Part shown: piece after piece, positions 2,941-8,193 of the stretch | Numbering within the stretch: position 1 is the first letter of the stretch | Layout: the number at the start of each line of letters is the position of its first letter | Origin: Hyalangium gracile | GTDB lineage: Bacteria > Myxococcota > Myxococcia > Myxococcales > Myxococcaceae | DNA: 64,000 nt | Direction of reading: 5' to 3' | Assembly (NCBI RefSeq): GCF_020103725.1 | Contig: NZ_JAHXBG010000007.1 | Location: 372,001-436,000 of the forward strand | Notes under the pieces: generated by a model | Databases searched by the model: none | What the model was told of the DNA's origin: nothing | The model's input: the letters and a program-made list of their open reading frames with translations, nothing else | Made by a program: the position numbers and the translations under genes

Positions 2941-3053
2941 CCGTCGGGCCAGGATGGCTGTATGGGAGGGGTCGCCCAGGGTAGGGGGTGTTTGTCCTAC
3001 CCGGGCTTCACCGCGCCGGCAGCGAGCCTGTCGAGCCTGACCCTGGAGTCTGC

Positions 3054-3938
3054 GTGAGCGCGCGCGCCGTGTCCGTACCGAACATCGCGAGTGACCTGGT
3101 GTCCCTCACCAAGCCGCGGCTCTCCAGCCTGGTGCTGGCGACCACGGCGGGCGGGGTGTGGCTGGCCCCCGGTGAGCTGAGCGTGCCCCGAGTGCTGGTG
3201 ACGCTGCTGGCCACCGCCGGCACCGTGGCGGCCGCCAACGCCCTCAACTGCTACATCGAGCGGCAGAGCGATCGCTTCATGGCGCGCACGCGCAACCGGC
3301 CGCTGCCCTCCGGGCGCATGGAGCCGGGCGTGGCGCTGTGGTTCGGCCTGTCGCTGGCGGCCGTGTCGCTGCCCGCGCTGGCGCTGGGCGCCAACGTGCT
3401 CACCGCGTGCCTGGGCCTGGTGGCCTTCCTGAGCTACGTGCTGGTGTACACGCCGCTGAAGTCGCGCACGTCCGCGGCCATGCTGGTGGGCGCGGTGCCC
3501 GGCGCGCTGCCGCCGCTGATGGGGTGGACGGCCGTGACGGGGCAGGTGGACACCGGCGGCTTCGTCCTCTTCTCCATCCTCTTCCTGTGGCAGATCCCCC
3601 ACTTCCTGGCGATCGCCCTGTTCCGCAAGGAGGAGTACGCGGCGGCGGGCCTCAAGTCCGTGCCGCTGGAGCGCGGGGACGAGTCCAGCCGGGCGCAGAT
3701 CGTCCTCTACCTGGTGGCGCTGGTGCCGATGACGCTGCTGCCGTACCAGCTGCGCATCGCCGGGCCCTGGTACCTGATGGTGGCCGTGGTGCTCGGGCTC
3801 AGCTTCCTGGGGCTGGGGGCATGGGGTTTCTTCCGGCAGCTGGGAAAGCCCTGGGCACGCCAGACGTTCTTCTTCTCGCTGCTCTACCTCACGGGCCTCT
3901 TCGTCGCGCTGATGCTCGACAGCGGCATGAGCCTCTAG
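3054..3938 (+). CDS. ctaB: Protoheme IX farnesyltransferase (heme O synthase)
   Basis: Integral-membrane UbiA-family prenyltransferase that adds a farnesyl group to heme B, giving heme O for terminal oxidases. The first substrate-binding motif is NCYIERQSDRFMARTRNRP (a Glu stands where many family members have the first Asp). The second region includes YTPLKSRTSAAMLVGAVPGA. A loop motif WQIPHFLAIALFRKEEY is typical of CtaB/CyoE. Seven or more hydrophobic helices follow. I chose GTG 3054 (294 residues) because GGAG lies 8 nt upstream and the family begins near the SLTKPR motif; an ATG at 2988 would add 22 unconserved residues. The next gene, a copper-protein-like lipoprotein, fits a respiratory context. 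No other oxidase genes are in the window. Confidence 0.93.
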   Translation: MSARAVSVPNIASDLVSLTKPRLSSLVLATTAGGVWLAPGELSVPRVLVTLLATAGTVAAANALNCYIERQSDRFMARTRNRPLPSGRMEPGVALWFGLSLAAVSLPALALGANVLTACLGLVAFLSYVLVYTPLKSRTSAAMLVGAVPGALPPLMGWTAVTGQVDTGGFVLFSILFLWQIPHFLAIALFRKEEYAAAGLKSVPLERGDESSRAQIVLYLVALVPMTLLPYQLRIAGPWYLMVAVVLGLSFLGLGAWGFFRQLGKPWARQTFFFSLLYLTGLFVALMLDSGMSL

Positions 3939-4004
3939 CAGGCCGCCGAGCAGACGCAGTCGTCGATGCCTGACCCCCTCTGTCTGACCAAGGAGCTTTC
4001 TCCC

Positions 4005-4811
4005 ATGAAGCTGCGCACGTTCAGCCTCGCCATGATCGGGGCCGCCGGACTGGCGGTCCTGCCGGGCTGCAAGAAGGACGAGGCGCCCGCCGCGCCCTCC
4101 ACCCCCGCGGCCACCCCCGAGCCCTCCAAGCCGGCGACTCCCGAGCCGGCCCAGGCGCAGACGCCGCCTGCCCCTGCTGGCAAGAGCACCATCAAGGGCG
4201 TGGTGAAGTTCACCGGCACCGCCCCGGCTCCCACCGACGTGGCGCCGAGCTCTGATCCGGCCTGCGAGGGCATGCCGCTGAAGGATCAGCCGGTGATGGT
4301 GAAGGACGGCAAGCTGCAGAACGTGCTGGTGCGCGTGAAGGGCAACGTGGCCGGCGCCCCCGCGGCGAGCGCGTCCAGCCCCGCGGTGGTCATCGACCAG
4401 GTGAAGTGCACCTACACGCCGCGCGTGATGGGCGCCCAGGCCGGTCAGCCCATCCAGGTGAAGAACAGCGACCAGACGCTGCACAACGTGCGCGCCATGG
4501 CGGGCACCAAGCCCATCTTCAACATGGCGCAGCCGCCGTCGATGCCGCCGGTCAACAAGACGACGCCGGCCGACACGGAGCTGCTCCAGCTCAAGTGCGA
4601 CGTGCACCCGTGGATGAAGGCCTTCATCCACGTCAGCCCGCACCCGTACTTCTCCACCACGGGGGAGGACGGCGCGTTCACCCTCTCCGGCCTGCCGGCG
4701 GGCACGTACACGCTCGAGGCGTGGCACGAGACGCTCGGCACGAAGACGGCCGAGGTCACCGTGAAGGACGACGAGACCGCCGAGGCCTCGTTCGAGTTCA
4801 CAGCGGGCTAG
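4005..4811 (+). CDS. Cupredoxin-like lipoprotein with carboxypeptidase-regulatory-like domain
   Basis: 268-residue exported lipoprotein. A short signal peptide ends in lipobox LPGC (residue Cys22), followed by a Pro/Ala/Thr linker. The core resembles plastocyanin-type proteins: an early His in QTLHNVRAM and a C-terminal CDVHPWMKAF providing Cys, His and Met, the usual type 1 copper ligand set. The last part (GEDGAFTLSGLPAGTYTLEAWHE) is a carboxypeptidase-regulatory-like beta-sandwich segment. I infer an envelope copper or electron-transfer role, supported by the adjacent ctaB gene; copper binding is not shown by sequence alone. ATG 4005 is preferred over 3966 because AAGGAG sits 9 nt upstream and the signal peptide then begins at residue 1. 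Confidence 0.75.
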   Translation: MKLRTFSLAMIGAAGLAVLPGCKKDEAPAAPSTPAATPEPSKPATPEPAQAQTPPAPAGKSTIKGVVKFTGTAPAPTDVAPSSDPACEGMPLKDQPVMVKDGKLQNVLVRVKGNVAGAPAASASSPAVVIDQVKCTYTPRVMGAQAGQPIQVKNSDQTLHNVRAMAGTKPIFNMAQPPSMPPVNKTTPADTELLQLKCDVHPWMKAFIHVSPHPYFSTTGEDGAFTLSGLPAGTYTLEAWHETLGTKTAEVTVKDDETAEASFEFTAG

Positions 4812-4853: not shown

Positions 4854-6311
4854 TCACCCTGGAGGGAGGGCAGCCGCGGCGGGCGGACCTTCCCTCCGGA
4901 CGCTGAAGCCCACCCGGGCGCCGCCGCCAGGGCGGTTCTCCGCGAACGTCTCGCCGCCGTGCGCGCGGGCAATCCGCTGCACCAGCGCCAGGCCCAGCCC
5001 GAGCGAGCCCGCCTCGCGAGCCTCTCCGCCCCGGTCCTTCCGATAGAAGGGCTGGAAGATGCGCGTCTCCTCGCCTGGGAGCAGGCCCGGGCCCCGGTCG
5101 TCCACGCAGAAGGCCAGGTGGCCGTCGCGCTCGAGGACTCGCAGCGCCTCCACGCCCTGGCCGTGCTTGCGCGCGTTCTCCAGGAGGTTGGCGAGCGCCC
5201 GGCCCAGCAGCGTCGCATCGGCCACCAGGGACGTCCCCGCGGCCTCCACCGAGAGCAGCTCCGTGGACAGCCCGGTCCGCTGGAGAGCGCGGGCCGCCAG
5301 CTCCGTGGCCTCCAGGGGGCGGGCCGTCACCTGGCCGAAGTCCAGCCGGGAGCTGGCGAGCAGCTCGCCCACCAGCGCGTCCAGCTCCACCACCTCACGG
5401 TCCACGTTGTCCAGCGTCTTCGGGTCGCCGCCGCCGTCCCGGAGGATTTCCGTGAGCACGCGCAGGTGCGCCAGCGGCGTGCGCAGCTCGTGTGACACGG
5501 CGGCGAGCAGCTCGCGCTGGTCCGCCATCTGGCGCTCGATGCGGGCGGCCATGTCGTTGAAGGCCTGGGCGAGCATGCTCACCTCTCCCGTGGCACCCTT
5601 GCCGAGCGTCACGCGCGTCTCCAGCTTTCCTTCGCCCAGCGCCTTGGCGGCACGGGCCAGCTCATCCATGGGCCGGGTCAGCCGCCGGGCGATGCCTCCG
5701 GACATCATCCACATGATGGCCCCCGCGAGCATCAAGGGCAGCACGGTGCGCCAGGGCGTCCAGCGCCGGGAGCGCGCGTAGCAGGCCTGGACCGAGCCGA
5801 GCTGGACTCCCTGGCGCGTCACCGGCACGGTGATGGTCGGTCTGTCGCAGGCGCCGCCCGCTCGAAGCAGCAGGGCTCCGGTCGTGTCGCGCAGCTCCAG
5901 ATCGACGTCCAGGTCGCGGGAGATGCCTTGCACGAGCTCCGCCCGCCGCTCGGGATGCTCCCACACCTCGGCGAAGCGGTTGCCGGCGAACGTCCGAGCC
6001 CGCTCCATCTCCTGGCGCCAGGCCGAGCCGCCCACCAGGTTCATCACCGTGGCGACCACCAGGCCCGTGACGAGGATGGACAGCCCGAACCAGATGAAGA
6101 GCCGCCGGTGCAGGTGCTCGAAGAGGTAGCGCCCCATGCGCGTCATCCGCAGGCGGTCCCGGTGCCAGCCTCCGTGGTGCCAGTGGCCATGCTTCCAGCC
6201 ATGCGGCCCATGGTGCTGCATCCAGCGCTCGCGAAGCCGGGAGGCCGGGGCGCAGCTCTCCGGGGCCTCGTCGCCCTCCGGCTCGGGGGCTTGAGGGCGC
6301 TCGGGGGACAT
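4854..6311 (-). CDS. HAMP sensor histidine kinase with His-rich N-terminus
   Basis: 485-residue membrane kinase. Residues 30-52 are rich in His, Trp and Gly (eight His in about 18 residues, including HHGPHGWKHGHWHHGGWH). TM1 is at about 71-91, then a short periplasmic loop, TM2, a HAMP segment (RRLTRPMDELARAAKALGEG), the H-box AVSHELRTPLAHL, N-box LANLLENARKHG and G-boxes CVDDRGPGL and LGLGLALVQ. The His-rich segment precedes TM1 and should be cytoplasmic. Its ATG overlaps the stop of the response-regulator gene (TGATG at 6309-6313), showing translational coupling; the GTG at 6314 is an alternative start. The architecture is CpxA/RstB-like; the signal is unknown, but with a Spy-like protein in the operon I infer metal or envelope stress. 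Confidence 0.9.
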   Translation of the reverse strand: MSPERPQAPEPEGDEAPESCAPASRLRERWMQHHGPHGWKHGHWHHGGWHRDRLRMTRMGRYLFEHLHRRLFIWFGLSILVTGLVVATVMNLVGGSAWRQEMERARTFAGNRFAEVWEHPERRAELVQGISRDLDVDLELRDTTGALLLRAGGACDRPTITVPVTRQGVQLGSVQACYARSRRWTPWRTVLPLMLAGAIMWMMSGGIARRLTRPMDELARAAKALGEGKLETRVTLGKGATGEVSMLAQAFNDMAARIERQMADQRELLAAVSHELRTPLAHLRVLTEILRDGGGDPKTLDNVDREVVELDALVGELLASSRLDFGQVTARPLEATELAARALQRTGLSTELLSVEAAGTSLVADATLLGRALANLLENARKHGQGVEALRVLERDGHLAFCVDDRGPGLLPGEETRIFQPFYRKDRGGEAREAGSLGLGLALVQRIARAHGGETFAENRPGGGARVGFSVRREGPPAAAALPPG

Positions 6312-6991
6312 CACGCACCCTCTTTGGCGAACACGTAGCCCACGCCGCGCACCGTCTTGATGAGCTTGCCTGCCTCATCCCCCAGCTTCTGCCGGAGGTG
6401 GGAGATGTGCACGTCCACGGTGCGCTCACCCACCACCGTGTCGCTGCGGCCCGCCTCGCCCAGCAGGGCGTCGCGGGGAATCACCCGGCCCGCGCGCCGC
6501 ATCAGCGCCACGAGCAGATCGAACTCCAGCCCGGTGAGCTCCACCGCCCGGCTCCCCACCTTCACCTCGCGCCCGGACACGTCCACGGAGATGCCGCTGG
6601 ACTCCAGCCGGTCCGCCACGGCGGCGGGCTGCGCTCGCCGGAGCACGGCTCGCAGGCGCGCCAGCAGCTCGCGCGGGCTGAAGGGCTTGGCCAGGTAGTC
6701 GTCCGCGCCCAGCTCCAGGCCCACCACCCGGTCCGTCTCGTCTCCGCGGGCGGTGAGCATGAGGATGGGAATCTGCCCCTTGGCGCGGATGCGCTTGCAC
6801 ACCTCCAGGCCGTCCATGCCCGGCATCATCACGTCGAGCAGCACCGCGTCGTAGGTGTGGGCCTCCAGTGCGGCCAGCCCGCGGCCTCCGTCCGGTGCGT
6901 GGGCCACCGTGATGCCGTTCTGCCCCAGGTACTGCGCGAGCAGCTCGTACATCCGGGTGTCATCGTCGATGAGGAGGACGCGGGTAGGCAT
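6311..6991 (-). CDS. OmpR-family response regulator
   Basis: 226 residues: receiver domain (acidic pocket IDDDTRMYE, phospho-acceptor Asp in AVLLDVMMPGMDG, conserved Lys in YLAKPFSP) followed by a winged-helix DNA-binding domain (ELTGLEFDLLVALMRRAGRV and TVDVHISHLRQKLGDEAG). It is the cognate regulator of the overlapping downstream kinase gene and probably controls its own operon. Start ATG 6989-6991; the Shine-Dalgarno is weak, and the gene begins 15 bp after the stop of the small membrane protein gene, so coupling or read-through is likely. Confidence 0.95.
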   Translation of the reverse strand: MPTRVLLIDDDTRMYELLAQYLGQNGITVAHAPDGGRGLAALEAHTYDAVLLDVMMPGMDGLEVCKRIRAKGQIPILMLTARGDETDRVVGLELGADDYLAKPFSPRELLARLRAVLRRAQPAAVADRLESSGISVDVSGREVKVGSRAVELTGLEFDLLVALMRRAGRVIPRDALLGEAGRSDTVVGERTVDVHISHLRQKLGDEAGKLIKTVRGVGYVFAKEGA

Positions 6992-7006
6992 GGAGGACTC
7001 GGGACT

Positions 7007-7213
7007 CTAGCGTGGCTCCGAGGGCGTGGGAGCCTCGGCGCGCAGGCCCGCGGGAGACTCGGCGCTGGTGGGGCAGGGCGCGCACGTGCGGGCGGCGCGC
7101 TCCTCCATCCAGGCCCGGCGGCACTGCGAGCGGTAGCGAAGGCTGGCGACGCCGGAGGTGTAGCCTCCGAGGGTCCCCAGGGCGAGCACGGCAATCAGGA
7201 TGCGACGGCGCAT
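7007..7213 (-). CDS. Small single-TM protein with Cys motif
   Basis: 68 residues: a basic N-terminus (MRRR), one hydrophobic helix (ILIAVLALGTLGGYTSGVA), then a basic segment with an isolated Cys and a CAPC motif, and a Pro-rich tail. I do not recognise a family. The topology is N-in with the Cys residues outside (periplasmic), or a cleaved signal peptide. AAGGAG lies 9 nt before the ATG at 7213, supporting real translation. It sits between the Spy-like and response-regulator genes in one operon, so I infer an accessory role in the same envelope-sensing pathway. Confidence 0.65.
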   Translation of the reverse strand: MRRRILIAVLALGTLGGYTSGVASLRYRSQCRRAWMEERAARTCAPCPTSAESPAGLRAEAPTPSEPR

Positions 7214-7252
7214 GGCGGTATCTCCTTGAAGGGGTGGGGTGTCCAGAGGTGC

Positions 7253-7723
7253 TCAGCAGTGCCGGTAGCCGCCGTGCCAGCCGTAGCCGCGGTAGCCGTA
7301 GCCCCAGCCGTGCTCGATGAGGTCCGCCAGCTCGCGGCGCTGGCGCGGATCCAGCGCCTCGTGCACCTGGGACATCGAGGCCCGCATCGTCTCGCGCAGG
7401 TTGGCCAGCAGCGCGTCATGCTTCGCGTGCAGCTCGTTCAGCGCGGCGGAGTCCAGGTGCTCGGCGCGCAGCGCCCGGGCGATGGCGGCGCGGCTGGCGC
7501 TCACCTCGTCGCGCATCTTCTCGAAGGCCTCGGTCAGCTCATCCGCCGCCTTGACGAAGACCTTCTCCTGGCCCGGCGAGGTGTCCAGCCGCTCGAACAG
7601 CCAGCGCATCTTCCCGCGCCAGCTCCAGCGCCCGCCCCGCCCGTGGCGGTGGTGCCAGCGGCCCCGGCGCAGCGTGAAGATGAGGCCCGCCAGGCACGCG
7701 GTTCCAAAGATGAATCCGAACAT
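7253..7723 (-). CDS. Spy/CpxP-like heavy-metal-sensor family protein
   Basis: 156 residues: an N-terminal hydrophobic helix (FGFIFGTACLAGLIFTL), then a His/Arg/Gly/Trp-rich segment (RRGRWHHRHGRGGRW), and an all-helical domain ending in LDPRQRRELADLI, which matches the LTxxQ motif of Spy/CpxP-type proteins. The C-terminus is again Gly/Tyr/His-rich. The positive charges directly after the helix would favour an N-out/C-in orientation, unusual for a Spy relative; alternatively the helix is a signal peptide. ATG 7723 has AAGGAG 8 nt upstream. It is the first gene of a four-gene minus-strand operon with a small membrane protein, regulator and kinase, the layout of a feedback loop such as CpxP-CpxRA. 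Ligand unknown. Confidence 0.75.
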   Translation of the reverse strand: MFGFIFGTACLAGLIFTLRRGRWHHRHGRGGRWSWRGKMRWLFERLDTSPGQEKVFVKAADELTEAFEKMRDEVSASRAAIARALRAEHLDSAALNELHAKHDALLANLRETMRASMSQVHEALDPRQRRELADLIEHGWGYGYRGYGWHGGYRHC

Positions 7724-7762: not shown

Positions 7763-7989
7763 GTATCGCGTTGTGCGGAGCAGAAAGTAGGCAGCGGGTG
7801 TGAAGGCCATGCCCGGACCCGCGTGAAGAAGTATGAAGCCCCTCGGTGGGGCCCAAAGGAATGAGGGGGGCGACGTGTGGGGTTACAATTGCGGCGCTCC
7901 GGTGATAGAGGGGCGGTGCCGGGGCGATGTCCGTCTCGGCCACGGGCGGTCTGGCAATGTCGGCCGTCATCGCAGAAAGAAGAAGAGCA

Positions 7990-8193
7990 ATGGCAACTGG
8001 TACCGTGAAGTGGTTCAATGATTCCAAGGGCTTCGGCTTCATCGCGCAGGAGGGCGGGGAGGATGTGTTCTGCCACCACACCGCCATCCAGGCTGACGGC
8101 TTCCGCACGCTCGCCGAGGGGCAGCGCGTGGAGTTCGACGTGAAGCGGGGCCCCAAGGGCCTTCAGGCGGAGAACGTTCGCGTCGTCGGCTGA
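7990..8193 (+). CDS. Cold-shock domain protein (CspA family)
   Basis: 67-residue single cold-shock domain that binds single-stranded RNA or DNA and acts as an RNA chaperone. Both RNP motifs are visible: [14 protein letters not shown] contains RNP1-like KGFGFI and RNP2-like DVFCHHTAI. The protein starts [17 protein letters not shown], the normal family start, at ATG 7990 after an AAGAAG stretch. Earlier in-frame ATGs at 7927 and 7957 would add unconserved sequence. The distance to the upstream gene (266 bp) and a possible promoter (TTACAA 7883-7888, 17 bp, TAGAGG 7906-7911) would give a leader of about 70 nt, reminiscent of csp mRNAs. A strong terminator follows. Confidence 0.95.

Follow-up and report, generated by a model that had tools for sequence, protein, structure and literature searches.

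A conserved myxobacterial operon that reads as a Cpx-like two-component system with an apparently inward-facing Spy-family protein

In a 64,000-nucleotide stretch of the Hyalangium gracile genome (contig NZ_JAHXBG010000007.1, positions 372,001 to 436,000; the whole stretch is called the window here) the minus strand carries a four-gene operon. It encodes, in order, a Spy-like protein of 156 residues at the operon head (7253..7723; Pfam Metal_resist, 8e-12), a small one-helix protein of 68 residues (7007..7213, called as an open reading frame) with an MRRR n-region and a CAPC motif, an OmpR-family response regulator (6311..6991, from profile matches) and a HAMP-HisKA-HATPase histidine kinase (4854..6314), which starts at a GTG at 6314 or at an ATG at 6311 that overlaps the regulator stop codon. 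From sequence comparison we think it somewhat probable that this operon is a Cpx-like envelope-stress two-component system with an inward-facing Spy-family protein; it reads as a system that works like Cpx, while by profile score it is no CpxAR member. The link to envelope stress is drawn because the operon shares a regulatory element with the gene of an exported Spy chaperone.

By the gene order of its relatives the operon is conserved among myxobacteria. Labels of the form L### denote loci of relatives and G### the genomes sampled. In a first scan a Spy-like match at E 0.01 was present in 45 of 59 genomes (H. gracile included), and in a sample of the phylum 127 of 179 genomes had a Spy profile match at 1e-6, a figure that also counts exported types. 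A named collection yielded 105 confirmed Spy-like relatives, from which 80 loci were retained for counts, the N-terminal motif of the Spy-like protein being one of the two patterns used in the scan. By title nearly all of the 80 are myxobacterial or deltaproteobacterial, the exceptions being L115 (Comamonas), L134 (Actinomycetota) and L157 (Proteobacteria). A downstream regulator gene is present in 67 of the 80 loci and both regulator and kinase in 65, and six of the 13 loci without a regulator stop within 250 bases. The small protein was located in 55 of the 67 regulator-bearing loci by a mechanical rule, which may include chance frames.

Upstream of the operon lies a candidate regulatory element, CTTCATACTTCTTCA, a CTTCA-N5-CTTCA direct repeat at 7824..7838 on the minus strand, 100 bases from the Spy-like ATG, and about 18 bases downstream of it is a conserved further half-site, CTTCACACC (7797..7805, minus strand). 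The general form is CTTCA-N5-CTTYA about 100 base pairs (bp) upstream, and all 12 aligned operon upstream regions (the window plus 11 relatives) carry the 15-base element with small changes together with a CTTCACA-like half-site. Among 79 of the 80 named loci (L113 had too little upstream DNA and was left out) the exact repeat CTTCA-N5-CTTYA lies no more than 150 bp from the start of the Spy-like gene in 42, compared with 0 of 15,800 shuffles; in L131 and L137 the element is present at more than 150 bp. The window contains one match to the 15-base form versus 0.03 expected. Over the genome of H. gracile as a whole, the degenerate 15-base form matches perfectly twice, at this operon and at an exported Spy paralog, and with one mismatch twice more, and a 16-base form has one perfect site and two with one mismatch, which precede the exported Spy gene and the gene of a siderophore-interacting-type FAD reductase.

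The same element recurs in front of exported Spy genes well beyond H. gracile. In 35 genomes, chosen among those carrying the operon, we counted 165 15-base sites with at most one mismatch versus 31 for a reversed control (both summed by hand). An exported Spy gene was found in 34 of the 35, and the element stands 79-119 bp upstream of it in 34 of 34, with no mismatch in 31 and two in the other three, whereas 1,750 shuffles gave three mismatches at best (the sites of G138, G139 and G144 were taken from separate upstream-region comparisons). G125 has an identical variant of the element at its operon and exported-Spy promoters, which fits recognition of the two by a single protein. In Myxococcaceae the operon head is an inward-type Spy gene, and the exported Spy gene is located elsewhere with the element retained. 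We infer that the operon's regulator very probably binds the direct repeat before both the operon and the exported Spy gene.

Four recurrent other targets were read, none of them recognisably a metal transporter or exporter and one of them without a known family. The FAD reductase is present in 30 of the 35 genomes, with an exact repeat upstream in 11 of 17 fetched and, by hand comparison, in the other 13 as well; it could hint at iron. A secreted protein some 410 residues long, present in 31 of the 35 genomes and with no Pfam or NCBIfam match, has a site in eight genomes, and the site carries one mismatch in four of 17 fetched upstream regions; 12 of those 17, that of H. gracile included, had no site (at least six mismatches). 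In six genomes of genus g43 a one-mismatch form lies 354-487 bases before the secreted-protein match, which starts at residue 45-78 (by hand), and in L256 (185-1408), L258 (167-1393) and L259 (1616-2929) the element stands 98-113 bp upstream of the gene for the secreted-looking protein. As a general target this gene was rejected; it is a candidate in some genera only. A calcineurin-like phosphoesterase-domain gene has a one-mismatch site in G000, G002 and G020 and is a weak target, because the G002 and G020 sites also lie inside a coding-like frame.

The second pillar of our reading is the orientation of the Spy-like protein, which appears, from the charges around its N-terminal segment, to be anchored facing the cell interior. 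Translation probably begins at the ATG at 7723, since conservation begins there and L052 has a stop codon just four codons upstream of the corresponding Met; a longer open reading frame starting at 7810 was rejected on these grounds. Residues 2-18, FGFIFGTACLAGLIFTL (7670..7720, minus strand), form an N-terminal hydrophobic anchor predicted to lie N-out/C-in, and are followed by an Arg/His/Gly/Trp-rich linker predicted to be cytoplasmic (residues 19-38; 7610..7669, minus strand), in which RGRWHHRHGRGGRW spans residues 20-33. Residues from about 41 to 140 (7304..7603, minus strand) make up a Spy/CnrX-like helical domain, assigned by Pfam and by model comparison, and a C-terminal Gly/Tyr/Trp/His/Cys tail (residues 139-156; 7256..7309, minus strand) is variable among relatives and often rich in His and Cys. 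The protein scores 45.9 bits with PF13801 (Metal_resist), above the gathering score of 29.2, and 23.6 bits with the LTXXQ family PF07813, just under the gathering score of 24.3. The top VIA match of its model is Spy (3o39; Z 8.7, root-mean-square deviation 4.4, 96 residues aligned), with rows of unrelated helical proteins close behind, and the Foldseek matches, at a best E of 0.31, include CnrX, Spy, CpxP and ZraP chains; helical bundles demand a higher Z.

Under the positive-inside rule the basic flank of a membrane segment stays in the cytoplasm, and all topology calls here apply this charge rule only. An uncharged N-terminus followed by a basic C-terminal flank would accordingly place the Spy domain inside the cell. 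Among 98 distinct Spy-like proteins (the window's included; 66 reached through the motif-using scan and 32 by similarity, counted apart) Lys and Arg are absent from residues 1-14 in 97, and residues 15-34 contain at least three of them in 95, and the similarity-found subset, with the window's protein in it, gives 31 of 32 and 32 of 32; L042, which has an Arg at residue 5, was scored as not hydrophobic. Exported Spy paralogs are built the other way round, with at least two Lys or Arg ahead of the hydrophobic core in all 21 read (for several of these the start was placed one or two residues beyond the matched part). The second Spy protein of H. gracile has an ordinary signal-like N-terminus. Three relatives, L065 (about 3014-3391), L069 (about 5621-5974) and L070 (about 5578-5913), have His/Cys/Gly-rich N-termini with no visible hydrophobic stretch, and their proteins are apparently cytoplasmic, as far as the sequence allows a call; a tblastn search of these three loci with the operon's regulator and kinase gave no match. 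In a quick tree the exported and signal-bearing Spy proteins fall on one side (Shimodaira-Hasegawa-like approximate likelihood-ratio test, 95) and the anchored and transmembrane-less ones on the other. Export of the operon's Spy-like protein, which the original prediction had named as evidence that would speak against it, is unlikely by the charge rule.

The kinase brings a second His-rich segment to what would be the same side of the membrane. Its tail HHGPHGWKHGHWHHGGWH (6162..6215, minus strand) has eight His in 18 residues and lies about 20 residues before the first transmembrane helix (TM1), and in the standard kinase layout the segment before TM1 is cytoplasmic, so we place the tail there. 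The next-highest His density among the 69 coding-like open reading frames of the window (His 1.8%) is five of 18. A small control from the same genome, in which 30 kinases were fetched, 29 read and only nine found to have a placeable transmembrane helix, gave at most three His before TM1 in those nine and at most four in the pre-transmembrane or pre-HisKA part of all 29. The tails of 59 of the 65 related kinases were scored, three without a start and three without a HisKA motif being omitted, and at least 39 have four or more His before TM1; the figure is a lower bound since the script scored L107 and L135 at zero although their N-termini hold His. Judged by these counts the His tail is common but dispensable. 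The most extreme of the 59 is the kinase of L158 (5741 onward), with 19 His before TM1, 11 of them within 18 residues.

The observations of the original prediction stood up well here: it had described eight His in about 18 residues before TM1 of the kinase and a similar segment directly after the helix of the Spy-like protein, both of which are present, and had suggested that by charge both segments could face the cytoplasm, which the counts above and the position of the kinase tail support. Absence of the His-rich segments in orthologues, which it regarded as contrary evidence, is found in part, in that 20 of the 59 kinases scored fewer than four His (the two script failures among them), with at least 39 keeping four or more. 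Its interpretation as a whole, that of a cytoplasmic metal-sensing pair, is partly supported: the charges favour its topology, and metal sensing is a candidate function.

Between the membrane helices the kinase is predicted to carry a periplasmic PAS-like sensor domain, at about residues 94-184 counted from the ATG at 6311 (5760..6032, minus strand). This region is modelled (m26b1634e4872) as a long helix plus a small alpha/beta domain, and extracytoplasmic sensor domains are its best matches in structure searches (VIA 9a5d, Z 8.2; 3cwf and 4ywz, Z 7.3; Foldseek 3cwf, E 0.014), and with middling scores of this kind a PAS-like fold is probable. Two cysteines of the domain, Cys155 (5847..5849, minus strand) and Cys177 (5781..5783, minus strand), are both kept in 39 of 40 aligned kinases, the window's included, and are thus better kept than the His tail; candidate roles for the pair are a disulfide, a redox site or a metal site. 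Both are missing in L124, and the L124-like kinase of L125 likewise has no Cys in the periplasmic domain. Outgroup kinases (L066-L068) have neither His tail nor Cys pair, and where the Spy start of these outgroup loci could be read (L066 and L067) it is signal-bearing. Given this Cys pair in a predicted periplasmic domain that is itself conserved, sensing is probably not confined to the cytoplasm. The kinase of L157 (5434-6489) keeps the His tail and the operon with almost no periplasmic domain, and offers a natural experiment on where the signal enters.

The CAPC that the original prediction had noted in the small protein lies at residues 44-47, and the protein has no Pfam or NCBIfam match. 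Its MRRR start and single helix suggest, by the same charge rule, an N-in, C-out or a secreted protein. CxxC occurs in two of the 55 relatives found by the rule (CAPC in L102, CPPC in L103) and in the small proteins of L033-L035 from the first set of relatives, and CAPC as a metal motif was rejected as a family feature on the count of two in 55; the small protein itself does belong to the family pattern.

How far this system resembles Cpx can be set out feature by feature. Alike are an OmpR-type regulator, a HAMP-HisKA kinase and a Spy-family protein in one locus, and, by motif only, a spy gene as apparent target; CpxP and Spy belong to the Cpx regulon according to PMC6737893. The Cpx box is given as 5'-GTAAA-N5-GTAAA-3' in PMC12802237. 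The myxobacterial element is likewise a direct repeat of the same 10-base period, and its reverse complement has GTGAA or GTAAA half-sites; it differs in that the half-site is mostly GTGAA, one base off GTAAA. Further differences are the apparently inward-facing Spy-like protein at the head, the extra small membrane protein, and a kinase with a Cys pair and a cytoplasmic His tail. In the Pseudomonas aeruginosa Cpx/CpxM system a small membrane protein gene also shares an operon with the regulator gene, as PMC12802237 describes it; in the myxobacterial operon the small gene lies between the Spy-like and regulator genes. Two outgroup genomes, G055 and G085, have a gene closer to the exported Spy type that directly adjoins a regulator gene 52-53% identical to the operon's, an arrangement that, from sequence identity, looks like the classical layout. 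CnrX is a periplasmic protein whose anchor runs N-in and leaves the domain on the periplasmic side. CnrX-type sensors share with the Spy-like protein an N-terminal anchor, a helical hairpin domain and the Metal_resist family, and differ from it in the charge pattern of the anchor, which is inverted in the myxobacterial protein. A literature search over titles and abstract openings found no report of this myxobacterial system.

Several results weigh against our reading. By score the proteins are distant from the Cpx equivalogs, the kinase reaching 148.8 bits versus a cut-off of 486 for CpxA (NF007007) and the regulator 175.9 versus 341 for CpxR (NF008199), both far under. The repeat is inexact within 150 bp in 37 of the 79 loci, all of them less similar (L124 and beyond), and with two mismatches allowed the 16-base scan of the H. 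gracile genome gave nine sites versus five in the control, near background, so only the best sites are informative. In 20 genomes without a detected inward Spy (partly drafts) there were 17 sites with at most one mismatch versus five in the control. Four exported-Spy genes were found in these genomes and two of them keep the site (exact in G009, one mismatch in G031; distances by hand), from which it follows that the element does not require the inward Spy. G031 has a regulator gene 73% identical, read with one in-frame stop, and in G009, which is 86% complete, no regulator gene was found at E 1e-60. Co-absence of element and operon is not a clean test, given draft genomes and retained sites. 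On the side of topology, the 80 named loci were found partly through the N-terminal motif, so conservation of the anchor is to some extent built into that sample; model confidence is low at the anchor; and the tree is a quick one in which the transmembrane-less rows join L063 on long branches. As for the His segments, the tail is lost in some operon kinases (for example L126, L130, L167 and L177), and the number of His in the kinase tail shows no correlation with that in the Spy linker (rho 0.11, 28 parsable loci), so that co-variation of the two was not found; with the Spy linker plus tail rho is 0.48 (p 0.009), a value uncorrected for kinship and for the three pairings.

If the operon does work like Cpx, then the kinase would, fairly probably, read the state of the envelope through the periplasmic PAS-like domain and its cysteine pair. 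Very likely, though a shade less so than binding of the repeat by the regulator, the Spy-like helical domain and its His/Arg-rich linker would lie at the inner side of the membrane, adjacent to the His-rich tail of the kinase. More speculatively, the Spy-like protein may be an adaptor that tunes the kinase from within the cell, a counterpart to CpxP on the outer side, with metal-ion or pH gating at the His segments as a possibility. Along the same lines, and just as tentatively, one could imagine a two-sided Spy control, in which an exported chaperone outside and an inverted Spy at the inner face answer to one regulator, the kinase is gated from both membrane faces, and the His-rich juxtamembrane segments provide the inner contact.

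Three other explanations deserve to be weighed against a Cpx-like system with an inward Spy. The best of them, which we hold to be somewhat unlikely, takes the His/Arg/Gly/Trp segments to be disordered basic linkers that fix topology or touch lipid and sense nothing: their length and sequence vary freely as the composition remains basic, both are of low confidence and without regular structure in the models, and they are lost in some members, yet their His content is well above the window background (eight of 18 versus at most five), and Arg or Lys alone would serve topology. A little less likely again is a cytoplasmic metal-sensing pair, in which both His segments, that of the kinase and that of the Spy-like protein, would bind Cu, Zn or Ni within the cell and set kinase activity. 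It can draw on the predicted inner-face location of both segments, the His kept in at least 39 of 59 kinases, the CGGG and His repeats in the Spy linkers of distant relatives, the Metal_resist family and the FAD reductase, a recurrent target that may hint at iron; loss of the tail in some members, the uncorrelated His counts and the lack of a recognisable metal exporter among the four targets read count against it. An ordinary CpxP-like layout, with N-in insertion and a periplasmic Spy domain binding the kinase's periplasmic domain, is improbable: the conserved predicted periplasmic domain and the precedent of CnrX and of Spy and CpxP, the latter two described as periplasmic in PMC6737893 and PMC8144458, would suit it, but the charge pattern of the 98 proteins, the normal n-regions of all 21 exported paralogs and the lack of any export signal in L065, L069 and L070 oppose it.

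Beside the operon, neighbours at 3966-4811 and 7990-8193 are kept in relatives, namely a cold-shock gene in divergent orientation and a convergent gene, whose protein has a carboxypeptidase-regulatory-like domain and, in a CxxHxxM sequence, a candidate copper site. L115, titled Comamonas sp. KCTC 72670, holds the operon among neighbours of myxococcal type (genes of the cold-shock, cupin and copper-site-like kinds), and the record is probably a mislabelled assembly.

Should our reading of a Cpx-like system with an inward-facing Spy be right, a relative of Spy that sits phylum-wide beside a kinase on the inside of the membrane would separate the role of this fold from its location. The inward Spy, the His tail and the periplasmic Cys pair would together mark a distinct class of sensor, and the regulatory element would give direct access to a regulon and to an envelope-stress response that can be tested in Myxococcus.

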